IMG/VR virus record: IMGVR_UViG_3300046507_000145 | Span: 1 to 44,423 of that record | Direction: 5' to 3' (one strand) | Length of the DNA: 44,423 nucleotides | From: a virus | Position numbers and translations under genes: made by a program | Shown here: positions 5,630 through 40,414 of the stretch, in pieces | Numbering within the stretch: the first letter of the stretch is position 1 | Layout: every line of letters begins with the position of its first letter | Notes under the pieces: generated by a model | Seen by the model: the letters and a program-made list of their open reading frames with translations, nothing else | Database searches by the model: none | What the model was told of the DNA's origin: nothing

Positions 5630-5925
5630 TCAAGCACAGCCCCGAAGTTGTCTCCGCTTGTGTCGCGGAGGTCACCACCGGTAAGTACAAGCTGCAAGTA
5701 CCTTCGGCTGATGGTCCCAACGAACTTAACGACATCAACCTCGCCGCCTATGCAATCCTAAAGGAAGCACTGTTTCAGCTCACCCAGAAGGAAGCCGGCT
5801 TCGTCGGACAGATGGTCAGAACGAATGCTGTTTCCGTGAAGCAGCGCAGGTGGCTCAAAGACCTGTTCAAGAGACACATCGGATACGACTTCGACGTGGG
5901 ATATGACGCCGCAGTTGCGGCCTGA
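5614..5925 (+). CDS. Hypothetical protein
   Basis: This is a 103-residue protein starting at ATG 5614, overlapping the end of the previous gene, with AGG 7-9 bases upstream. It has no transmembrane segment. Residues 40-60 (LNDINLAAYAILKEALFQLT) and 75-90 (RRWLKDLFKRHIGYDF) predict amphipathic helices, and the latter is basic. Its last codons and the following noncoding DNA (21 bases, 5914-5934) are identical to the end of the unrelated gene at 41185. It is probably translated with its neighbour. The function is unknown. Confidence 0.7.
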   Translation: MANALIKHSPEVVSACVAEVTTGKYKLQVPSADGPNELNDINLAAYAILKEALFQLTQKEAGFVGQMVRTNAVSVKQRRWLKDLFKRHIGYDFDVGYDAAVAA

Positions 5926-12059: not shown

Positions 12060-12076
12060 ATTACCCCATCCTCTAG
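12060..12076 (+). promoter_or_regulatory. Phage RNA polymerase promoter P4
   Basis: ATTACCCCATCCTCTAG has two changes from consensus. Transcription should start at G12076, which is also the first base of a 10-bp terminal stem in the following leader. Confidence 0.82.
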
Positions 12077-12411
12077 CCTGAGAAGTGCAGTGCCCTGTTT
12101 GGTGGGGAAGCTAGAGACCGGAGACCTGACACCGGCGTCTTCTCAGGCAACCAAATATTCCCGACTGTCTGCGCGTAGGCACCGGGCGTCGGCTGGACGA
12201 CGAGACGCTCTGATCCAGCAGAGGTGTGGCCCCTTCCTGAAAAATTGGAGGAACACGCCACACCGCAGCGGGTGAAAGCCCCGCACAAGTTTCTCGTCCG
12301 CCCCCAGCAATGCCTGATCAGCGCTGACCACGAATGGACGTGGTGCTTCCCCGTGAACGTGACGGGGAGGGGCTTCAATTCACCCACAGCTACTCCGAGA
12401 GAGGGCACTTA
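12076..12411 (+). ncRNA. Long structured RNA leader of the DNA polymerase gene
   Basis: These 336 bases separate promoter P4 from the polymerase start. The RNA should begin with a perfect 10-bp stem (12076-12085 with 12139-12148). Further perfect stems are GCTGGA/TCCAGC near 12192-12217 and GGTGTGGC/GCCACACC (12223-12230 with 12257-12264), which encloses TTCCT/AGGAA. A GAAA-loop hairpin lies at 12268-12284, followed by ACCACG/CGTGGT near 12327-12345 and CCCCGT/ACGGGG near 12345-12365. No gene fits. It could be a cis-acting mRNA control element, a free small RNA, or both. No known RNA family is recognised. Confidence 0.65.
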
Positions 12412-14463
12412 ATGCAAAAACCAACCGGTCACACGCTACTCGTCAAGCCGACGCTCCCCTCCGAGCCGGCACCGAAGCGTGCAGTCTTCGACATCGAAGC
12501 GAACGGGTTCTTGGCGGAAGTCGACAGGCTCCACTGCGCTGTCATCGTGGATGCCGACACGAGCGAGCTGTCCGACTATGCGGACCAGCCTGCGCACACG
12601 CCAATCGAACGTGCATTGAGTGTCCTATCTCAGTCGGAAGAGTTGATCGGCCACAACATCATCAAGTACGATCTGCCCGTCCTCGACAAGATTTACGGAT
12701 GGCGACCCTACAAGGACCAGAAGATCACCGACACGATCATCTGGACCAAGCTGGTGTTCCCAGAGTTGCGCGATGCGGACTACCGTGCACGCCAGCTCGC
12801 CGCGAAGAACGGCACCACGTATCCCGGCTTCTACGTCGGCTCGCACGCGCTCGAAGCGTGGGGCTTCCGCCTGGGTATCCTGAAAGGTCAGTACGGCTAT
12901 CTGCCGAACGGCCAGTCGGACCCCGAGGCGTGGGTGCGCTGGAACGCCGAGATGCACGACTACATGAAGCAGGACGGGCGCGTTACGCTCGCTCTGCTGA
13001 AGAAGCTCGAAGCAACTCGGACCAGCCCCGTCGCGTTTGAACTGGAGCACCGCTTCGCCACCATCCTTGCAGCGATGGAGCGCCGCGGCTTCGCGTTCGA
13101 CACCGCAGCGGCACAGAGCCTGTACAGCGATCTGGTCAAGGTGCGCCTGCGCATCGCGGCCGATCTGAAGGAGACCTTCCCGCCGCGCGTCGTCGAGGAA
13201 GTCTTCATCCCGAAGGCCAACAACAAGGCCCGCGGCTACGTCAAGGGTCAGCCGTTCACCAAGCGGCACACCGTCGAGTTCAATCCCAGCTCCCGCGTGA
13301 TGATCGCCGATCGTCTCAAGGAGAAGGGCTGGGTGCCCACCGAGTTCACTCCCGGTGGACAAGCGAAGATCGACGAGACCATCCTATCGAAGCTTGACTA
13401 TCCCGAGGCCAAGGTTCTCGCCGATCACTTCCTCATTGAGAAGCGCATCGGCCAGATCGCCGAGGGCGACCAAGCGTGGCTGCGGCTGGAGCGCAACGGA
13501 GCAATCCACGCGTCAGTCAACACGCTCGGTGCGATCACCGGTCGCTGCACTCACAGCAACCCGAACATCGCACAGGTGCCCAAGGTTGGCTCGAAGTACG
13601 GCGAGGAGTGCCGCAGCCTGTTCGTGGCCCGCAAGGGCTACAAGCTGGTCGGCGTCGATCTCTCCGGTGTCGAGCTGCGTTGTCTCTCGCACTACATGGC
13701 GAGGTACGATGGCGGTGCTTACGGCAAGGCTGTGGTCGAAGGTAGCTCGAAGGACGAGACCGACGTTCACTCGCTGAACGCCAAGGCTCTCGGTCTGAAC
13801 CCGCACTCGCTCTACAACGTGTTCGGTAAGCAGAAGACCGGCCGCGACATCTCGAAGACCTTCATCTACGCCTTCCTCTACGGGGCAGGCGACGAGAAAC
13901 TTGGGTCCATCATCGGTGTCTCCGAGGAGGAGATCGAGCGCTTCCCGACCACGCAGCGAAGCCGCTGGGGCAGGGCAGTGCAACGTCTCACCAAGGACGG
14001 CCGAGAGCCCACGCCGGTTGTCATCGCGATGATCGTGAAAGGTGGCATGCTAAAGGCACGCTTCCTGAAGCAGACCCCCGCGCTCGACAAGCTGAAGGAA
14101 GCTGTCACCGAGAAGGCCAAGAAGACGAAGGTGCTGATCGGCCTCGACGGTCGCGCGCTGTTCGTGCGCTCCGCTCACTCCGCTCTCAACACGTTGTTGC
14201 AGGGCGCAGGTGCCGTGCTCGCGAAGGACGCGACGGTCATCGCGTATGACGACCTATCCACTCGTGGATGGGAATGGGTAACGGACTGGGCGCTCGTCGC
14301 TCACATCCACGACGAACTCCAGAACGAAGCAAGAGAGGACATCGCTGATGAAGTCGGACAGACGATCAGGTCGGCCATGCGCAAAGCTGGCGAGAAGTAC
14401 GCAATGCGCGTCCCCATCGACGGGGAGTTCAAGGTCGGCCGCAACTGGGCCGAAACTCACTAG
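12412..14463 (+). CDS. gp5: DNA polymerase, family A (T7 gp5)
   Basis: This 683-residue replicative polymerase (T7: 704) has a 3'-5' exonuclease: AVFDIEANGF, IGHNIIKYDLPVL and YMKQDGRVTL are Exo I-III. The polymerase domain has motif A GVDLSGVELRCLSHYMARYD (D416), motif B ISKTFIYAFLYGAG and motif C HIHDEL (D634). Between motif B and the TPALDKL helix is an extra stretch of about 30 residues (from EIERFPTTQRS) absent from T7. ATG 12412 follows GAGAGAGGG; the frame is open further upstream into the leader but that part is not conserved. The host thioredoxin-binding loop region was not resolved. One CTATCCAC copy lies inside the gene. Confidence 0.97.
   Translation: MQKPTGHTLLVKPTLPSEPAPKRAVFDIEANGFLAEVDRLHCAVIVDADTSELSDYADQPAHTPIERALSVLSQSEELIGHNIIKYDLPVLDKIYGWRPYKDQKITDTIIWTKLVFPELRDADYRARQLAAKNGTTYPGFYVGSHALEAWGFRLGILKGQYGYLPNGQSDPEAWVRWNAEMHDYMKQDGRVTLALLKKLEATRTSPVAFELEHRFATILAAMERRGFAFDTAAAQSLYSDLVKVRLRIAADLKETFPPRVVEEVFIPKANNKARGYVKGQPFTKRHTVEFNPSSRVMIADRLKEKGWVPTEFTPGGQAKIDETILSKLDYPEAKVLADHFLIEKRIGQIAEGDQAWLRLERNGAIHASVNTLGAITGRCTHSNPNIAQVPKVGSKYGEECRSLFVARKGYKLVGVDLSGVELRCLSHYMARYDGGAYGKAVVEGSSKDETDVHSLNAKALGLNPHSLYNVFGKQKTGRDISKTFIYAFLYGAGDEKLGSIIGVSEEEIERFPTTQRSRWGRAVQRLTKDGREPTPVVIAMIVKGGMLKARFLKQTPALDKLKEAVTEKAKKTKVLIGLDGRALFVRSAHSALNTLLQGAGAVLAKDATVIAYDDLSTRGWEWVTDWALVAHIHDELQNEAREDIADEVGQTIRSAMRKAGEKYAMRVPIDGEFKVGRNWAETH
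14252..14261 (+). promoter_or_regulatory. Stoperator-like element inside DNA polymerase, copy 12
   Basis: ACCTATCCAC with an inverted second half (CTATCC-ACTCGT-GGATGG) lies in coding sequence near the gene's 3' end. It may be chance. Confidence 0.35.
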
Positions 14464-39731: not shown

Positions 39732-39748
39732 ATTACCCCGCCCTCTAG
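39732..39748 (+). promoter_or_regulatory. Phage RNA polymerase promoter P6, phi-OR-like
   Basis: An exact ATTACCCCGCCCTCTAG, 172 bases after terL, with no + strand gene for 1.2 kb. T7 has a promoter (phi-OR) at its right end that serves replication and packaging, so this copy is likely its counterpart. Confidence 0.85.
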
Positions 39749-40060
39749 GATGCCCCCGATGATGTATATGAGAGTCACTGGTGCGGTTTCTGGGCACTGC
39801 CGTGTTTATGGTGCGGCCCGCTGGGGTTCGGCTCACGCCTCACCCCAGCCTTGTCAAGCACACCTAGGTTGCACTTAGAGTGCACTTAGGGTCCTGCCTT
39901 GTTTTCTGGAGTGCCTTCGTGCTCGTCCACACCCTCGGATAAAACCTACGAAAAATCTGAGTGGTGATCGATAGACGGCAGCGAAAATCTTCCCCCCGTG
40001 CCCGGCCTCGCGCGTGCCATTTCCCGCGCCCAGCCGCGCGTGCACCCGCCTAATACCGCG

Positions 40061-40074
40061 TGTGGCGTGCCACA
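40061..40074. repeat. Dyad TGTGGC-GT-GCCACA, copy 2
   Basis: Identical to 1917-1930. It lies 16 bases before the TTGAAA of the candidate early promoter. Confidence 0.5.
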
Positions 40075-40089
40075 AGTAACACTAACCCA

Positions 40090-40119
40090 TTGAAAACATT
40101 GAGCACGAAAGTGGATAAG
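40090..40119 (+). promoter_or_regulatory. Sigma-70-like early promoter overlapping a minus-strand TTATCCAC element
   Basis: TTGAAA (40090-40095) and GATAAG (40114-40119) are 18 bases apart. The -10 overlaps GTGGATAA (40111-40118), the reverse complement of TTATCCAC, so a protein binding the element would block this promoter. The element points leftward, in line with the minus-strand operon ending at 40199. Confidence 0.45.
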
Positions 40120-40198
40120 AGATGCAATGAAGGGCACTAGCGGGCCACTTCGGTGCATCGGCGCGCGCTTAAAGCTGCGAGCGCGAGTGTGCGGGTGT

Positions 40199-40414
40199 CT
40201 AAGTGTTTTCGTCGGTCGCACGCTCGGGGCACGTTGATGGCACGTTGAGTTGCACGCTGCTGGCCGGAGAGCCAGCGCTAGGTGCATCGGGAGTGTCTAC
40301 AAGCGATGCCAGCGCGGCAATGCCACGGAGGAGCACCAAGCGTTGCTCTACGGTGCACCGAGGTGCGACGTCGATTAGCCTAGCGGTCAACATCAGCGCG
40401 ACGTCGGGTGCCAT
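40199..40414 (-). CDS. Second gene of the minus-strand operon, unknown (71 aa)
   Basis: On the minus strand the ATG at 40414 lies one base after the stop of the upstream gene, with GGAAGG 8 bases before it: classic coupling. The product (MAPDVALMLTARLIDVAPRC ... EQRLVLLRGIAALASLVDTP) has an amphipathic helical first half and a Pro/Ser/Thr-rich, probably disordered second half ending ATDENT. No family is recognised. It is one of only two protein genes opposed to the rest of the genome, a position typical of prophage-expressed genes. Function is unknown. Confidence 0.5.
   Translation of the reverse strand: MAPDVALMLTARLIDVAPRCTVEQRLVLLRGIAALASLVDTPDAPSAGSPASSVQLNVPSTCPERATDENT
40351..40360. 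repeat. Palindrome CGGTGCACCG, copy 1
   Basis: A perfect 10-base palindrome inside the minus-strand gene at 40199-40414. It recurs at 42301-42310 and nearly at 40596-40605. Confidence 0.4.

Follow-up and report, generated by a model that had tools for sequence, protein, structure and literature searches.

Two RNA families absent from Rfam 15 recur as leader modules before DNA polymerase and TerC-like genes of phages

In the window, that is, the whole stretch of 44,423 nt analyzed here (positions 1 to 44,423 of virus record IMGVR_UViG_3300046507_000145), we found that the leader running from a phage promoter to the DNA polymerase gene contains two RNA families, designated modules A and X, that are absent from Rfam 15. 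Comparison with related phages resolved region 12076–12411 into no fewer than three RNA modules in tandem (A, X, and B). As judged from predicted folds, each module folds separately; each also evolves independently and is conserved in structure, and we regard the structural claim for these modules as secure. A first-pass annotation had described the region as one structured RNA of 336 bases. Indeed, the region between the promoter and the polymerase gene is a structured RNA, as evidenced by covariation in relatives, but a single 336-base RNA must give way to a chain of independent modules, of which A and X recur before unrelated genes.

The window phage is a T7-type podovirus that encodes its own RNA polymerase, a primase-helicase-like protein, and a family A DNA polymerase; its integrase adjoins tRNA-Leu. 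The DNA polymerase gene (12412–14463; this gene and all leader features lie on the + strand) encodes 683 residues (Pfam DNA_pol_A, 8.8e-40; PHROG DNA polymerase), and the leader between the promoter and the start codon at 12412 is non-coding. The T7-type promoter, ATTACCCCATCCTCTAG, occupies 12060–12076. The motif TTACCCCGCCCTCTAG occurs five times in the window versus 0.21 copies expected (none of 100 shuffles gave five), and one copy (12061–12076) ends at G12076, in agreement with the promoter previously placed ahead of the leader. From the T7 promoter layout, we infer that G12076 would be the first transcribed base. The cognate promoter motif of the sister phage G002 is ATTACCCG[AC]CCCTCTAG. 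At about 21420 of G002 (L002, 5760–5790), the promoter ahead of module A looks truncated (ATTACCC then TTAGCCCGAG), which suggests a small deletion. A further phage promoter copy starts a stretch without an obvious gene at 39733–40260 of the window; G002 shows strong conservation of its first part (GGATGCCCCCGATGATGTAT..., GGCCCGCTGGGGTTCGGCTCACGCCTCACCCCAGCC), and the stretch is a candidate for a second non-coding transcript. An intercistronic repeat, TGATCTATCCAC, was seen at 5923, 7067, 11597, 41158, and 41929 of the window, in some cases with GGAGGA and a start codon coming next, and the sister phages carry similar repeats.

Module A, the first 73 nt of the leader (12076–12148), is closed by stem P1 (12076–12085 with 12139–12148), an exact 10-bp stem that begins at the predicted first base, just as first described; more than five further stems follow up to the start codon, where at least five had been claimed. 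In the four known members, namely those of the window, G002, G001, and a prophage in a Bradyrhizobium-genus genome (G052), two-sided changes were found in 9 of the 10 P1 pairs, with 98.9% of cells paired and none of 500 shuffles as good. This varying stem encloses an almost invariant core (about 12087–12138). Because the core hardly varies among the four members, helices P2 (12093–12096 with 12104–12107) and P3 (12118–12121 with 12132–12135) stay predictions, as does the putative P2–P3 loop contact (12101–12103 with 12124–12126).

Module X (12160–12286) was recovered by pattern scans of viral contigs and confirmed with a covariance model (R1/R2), giving 13 members including the window. Its fold consists of P1 (12160–12163 with 12183–12186), P2 (12167–12171 with 12176–12180), P3 (12187–12191 with 12198–12202), P4 (12208–12211 with 12220–12223), P5 (12224–12230 with 12257–12263), P6 (12268–12272 with 12280–12284), and an intramolecular kissing-loop helix, in which 12192–12197 (GCUGGA) in the P3 loop pairs with 12214–12219 (UCCAGC) in the P4 loop. 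Over the 30 pairs of these seven helices, 99.0% of cells were paired in the 13 sequences, and two-sided changes were found in 9 pairs (22 cells). None of 500 shuffles matched either the paired fraction or the covariation, and controls with slid alignments reached at most 44% paired. The kissing helix alone had 98.7% of cells paired (n = 13) and two-sided changes at three of its six positions, the variants being GCUGGA/UCCAGC, GUUGGA/UCCAAC, GCUAGA/UCUAGC, and GUCGGA/UCCGAC; covariation thus proves the predicted kissing-loop pseudoknot. Moreover, P5 was rebuilt in almost all members, many loop bases are invariant, and P6, 5 bp long, carries a T-loop-like loop of 7 nt, U-N-N-N-A-N-N (U at position 1 and A at position 5).

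Both X and A show compensatory changes beyond those of the controls, by which they are conserved structured RNAs; the comparison with relatives proposed in the first-pass annotation thus revealed covariation rather than a lack of it. The folding energy of the 336-nt leader (z = −2.9 to −3.0) was equaled or surpassed in 8 of 88 other 336-nt windows sampled from the genome and is unremarkable in this GC-rich genome, so that the proof of structure lies in covariation and not in thermodynamics. The minimum-energy fold of the full 336 nt lacks the 10-bp stem; folding module A by itself yields this stem. This unexceptional z-score, together with an antisense 111-codon open frame spanning the leader, might be taken to indicate chance structure in GC-rich DNA, a DNA-level element, or an overlapping gene, but we consider this scarcely credible, as it is already contradicted by the compensatory changes in X and A. 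Protein coding in sense or antisense was rejected on these changes and on the indels, the members of X ranging from 109 to 127 nt with differences that are not multiples of three, and a DNA-only hairpin was rejected on the G–U pairs, which lie on the transcribed strand only. The many G–U pairs on that strand and the co-orientation of X with its flanking genes also argue for an element acting at the RNA rather than the DNA level.

Module B was found in three related phages (the window, G002, and G003). Hairpin 1 (12328–12343; stem CCACG/CGUGG, loop AAUGGA) has different yet pairing stems in the two sister phages, with the loop AAUGRA kept (three sequences, compared by eye), and hairpin 2 (12349–12367; stem CCCCGU/ACGGGG, loop GAACGUG) likewise has different, still pairing stems at the same place in both. 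Downstream of these, the stretch AGCTACTCCGAGAGAGGGCA (12388–12407), which carries the polymerase ribosome-binding site, is identical in the window, G002, and G003, and a reduced form of it occurs in L003–L005. So far, only B is polymerase-specific. The gp43 DNA polymerase of T4 and RB69 is controlled through a translational operator, a hairpin in the leader of the polymerase gene. The B hairpins resemble it in lying in a phage DNA polymerase leader but differ from it in that they lie 45–84 nt upstream of the start codon and do not overlap the ribosome site.

The modular nature of the leader is evident from its close relatives, whose polymerases are 84–85% identical to that of the window. Thus, G002 keeps A and B without the middle part X, whereas G003 has other sequence followed by B; the order before the DNA polymerase gene is therefore A-X-B in the window, A-B in G002, and other-B in G003. 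In G003 (L001, about 2330–2620), this other part is a different structured-looking leader portion with a long stem, TCGATTGCA/TGCAATCGA, in place of A and X. Before TerC-like genes, we observed X alone (G030/G031), A alone (G052), X-A (G001), and X-D (G026 and G027); the gene downstream of A at locus L180 is TerC (PF03741, 5.7e-40). In the last arrangement (L082 and L083), module D takes the place that module A has in G001, downstream of X and upstream of the TerC gene; its stem of about 14 bp differs between the two phages while still pairing, and the core that it encloses is identical. Altogether, A and X each occur by themselves or with the other, as A-X and as X-A, and the genes that follow are TerC-like genes (A and X), DNA polymerase genes (A and X), and unrelated small genes (X); there is one copy per genome.

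The 13 members of X reside in phages or prophages of several unrelated kinds: the clade of the window, a second podovirus clade with a polymerase about 36% identical, and several phages without a detectable relative of the window polymerase, among which G025, G028, and G029 also lack a detectable relative of the other window proteins tested. One member resides in a prophage of Bradyrhizobium sp. BR 10289. With model R1/R2, no other X was found in overlapping samples of the genus, family, order, and class of the host (272, 399, 398, and 385 genomes, respectively), so that about 1,450 alphaproteobacterial genome searches, counted over these overlapping samples, yielded X in one Bradyrhizobium prophage and A in another. 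Weak model matches in Bradyrhizobium and other genomes (26–32 bits; L128–L130 and L181–L187) were rejected, being within or antisense to open reading frames or poorly aligned, as were 24 other genome pattern matches scoring below 20 bits. INPHARED phages, in a set from which records near the window may be absent, gave no match to the window region or to the X-A region of G001 at blastn sensitivity.

X begins about 8–31 nt past the upstream stop codon and, in all cases examined, has the orientation of its flanking genes; where no module intervenes, it usually ends 19–24 nt before the next start codon (seven cases). The genes flanking it are unrelated between lineages. A and X are conspicuous as non-coding DNA common to unrelated lineages: their edges are sharp and coincide with the predicted structures, and identity reaches 93% over 115 bp; the coding matches to other lineages are mostly at 66–80% among the matches listed. 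These sequence comparisons show A and X as units transferred between unrelated phages.

The Rfam search proposed in the first-pass annotation identified no known family in the leader. Across the full window, Rfam 15 recognized only a tRNA (493–574) and nothing in the leader. At E values up to 10, the leader gave a single group II match of 13.9 bits against a cut-off of 49; it falls on one T-loop hairpin, P6 of X, and a group II intron was rejected. P6, with its 5-bp stem and 7-nt loop, is indeed like the T-loop hairpins of group II intron domain 1, the cobalamin riboswitch, and tRNA, but the remainder of X is unlike these RNAs. Module A alone gave nothing relevant at E values up to 10, and this applies also to a cobalamin riboswitch, considered on account of GGAGACCUG in module A, which we take to resemble a B12 box. 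The X-bearing contigs and the A locus L180 contained no Rfam match, and literature searches found no description of either element. GOLLD and ROOL are structured phage or prophage RNAs of unknown function that have kissing loops and form nanocages; GOLLD exceeds 800 nt in many members, combines a constant 3′ region with a looser 5′ region, and often lies near tRNA islands (PMC12286853). Like these, A and X are structured phage RNAs with kissing loops (putative in A) and no Rfam relative outside their own families, and some relatives of the X 3′ hairpin also lie near tRNAs. They differ, however, in size (70–127 nt versus several hundred), lie between protein genes ahead of start codons, and match neither model; GOLLD and ROOL are nearest to them in spirit, and membership of either family is not claimed.

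On the reading that we prefer, though with evenly divided confidence, A and X would be portable leader modules that lie between the genes of polycistronic phage mRNAs and influence, in cis, the gene that follows. Each module would fold autonomously immediately upstream of a ribosome-binding site and set the output of the next gene; its fixed local fold might keep the ribosome site open and insulate it from the upstream message, and the modules might protect or process an mRNA end. In the window phage, the transcript begun at 12076 would have A as its 5′ cap and X as a compact pseudoknotted body, and the B hairpins near the ribosome-binding site would control the polymerase as its gene-proximal element. 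The orientation of the modules, their near-fixed spacing from the start codon, the missing terminator, and their interchange ahead of like genes favor cis-acting modules of a generic kind (insulation, stability, or processing) rather than a riboswitch tied to one pathway. The role in polymerase control or replication raised in the first-pass annotation is not supported, since A and X both occur before other genes, and nothing specific to replication was found. Several observations weigh against action in cis: the downstream genes, being unrelated, leave no common pathway under control; sequestration of the ribosome site is inconsistent (mean unpaired probability, 0.34–0.76), so that no switch-like output is visible; the promoter before A in G002 is broken (ATTACCC then TTAG), so that A need not mark a 5′ end; and the occurrence of one copy per genome in diverse surroundings would also fit a processed RNA acting in trans.

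Such small trans-acting RNAs, cut from operon transcripts, directed at a host or phage target, and carried in gaps like tRNA genes, would account for the unrelated neighbors and the single copy per genome, and the kissing loops and T-loop hairpin fit a compact stand-alone fold. The P2 tetraloop of X (12172–12175 in the window) is self-complementary in 13 of 13 members (UGCA, CGCG, or GCGC), which would suit dimers and hints at, but does not prove, loop–loop dimerization of X. Many other viral contigs also carry hairpins like the X 3′ hairpin, in some cases adjoining tRNA genes, and Aeromonas phages have similar elements next to tRNAs in gaps without annotation. The lack of a T-run terminator after X, a recognized promoter ahead of X in the window only, the near-fixed distance from X to the start codon, and the tandem arrangement of modules, in both orders, ahead of like kinds of gene nevertheless make an RNA acting in trans rather doubtful.

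It is unlikely that polycistronic phage mRNA is divided by A and/or X acting as self-cleaving ribozymes or as processing or stabilizing elements. The intercistronic position of A and X between unrelated genes, the closing stem of A varying freely around an almost invariant core, and the pseudoknot of X with its many invariant loop bases would be in keeping with such a role, but no described ribozyme model in Rfam matched the leader or module A alone even at E values up to 10, and no cleavage site is evident in the sequence. T7 has intercistronic RNase III sites, which are likewise structured elements between genes of a T7-type transcript; A and X differ from them in keeping many loop bases and a pseudoknot, and the contrast with T7 drawn earlier is correct in that only 18 nt separate T7 genes 4.7 and 5.

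Ligand-binding aptamers, namely riboswitches of a new class, are less probable still. The almost invariant core of A inside a variable stem would suit an aptamer, and bacterial TerC homologues often carry the yybP-ykoY manganese riboswitch, also a structured leader immediately before TerC-family genes. A and X, however, precede DNA polymerase and other genes sharing no pathway, show neither a conserved expression platform nor consistent masking of the ribosome site, and match neither yybP-ykoY nor another riboswitch model; despite the TerC genes, the yybP-ykoY model gave no match at E values up to 1 (L072, L082, and L083) or up to 0.1 (L180), and a known riboswitch was thereby rejected for the TerC leaders.

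More speculatively, it is possible, though we lean against it, that A and X represent two new functional RNA classes (catalytic, ligand-binding, or host-directed) exchanged as plug-in cassettes in any order, X perhaps being a symmetric dimer via the P2 loop. In any case, two compact RNA families are combined like parts in the leaders of genes for DNA polymerase and a TerC-family membrane protein, and whether phages trade RNA control modules as they trade genes becomes testable. Their small folds, and the presence of each family in a sequenced prophage of Bradyrhizobium, make reporter fusions, cleavage assays, and structure probing feasible.

The hairpins resembling the 3′ hairpin of X, GCAGnGGGUGnnAGCCCCn'CAC, have a closing pair that is nearly always complementary (L077–L080, L155, L157, L158, L160–L162, L166, L167, L170, L171, L173, L176, L177, and L178). 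They are often preceded by an AGAG box and a variable stem, and some lie within tRNA clusters; Acidovorax phage AP1 and Aeromonas phages phiA005 and 4_L372X have similar elements in gaps that carry no annotation. Together with the X 3′ hairpin, they possibly form a wider RNA superfamily. Rfam matches in viral contigs with a related hairpin were to abiF RNA and permuted tmRNA (L165, 673–709, and L157, 5626–5909).
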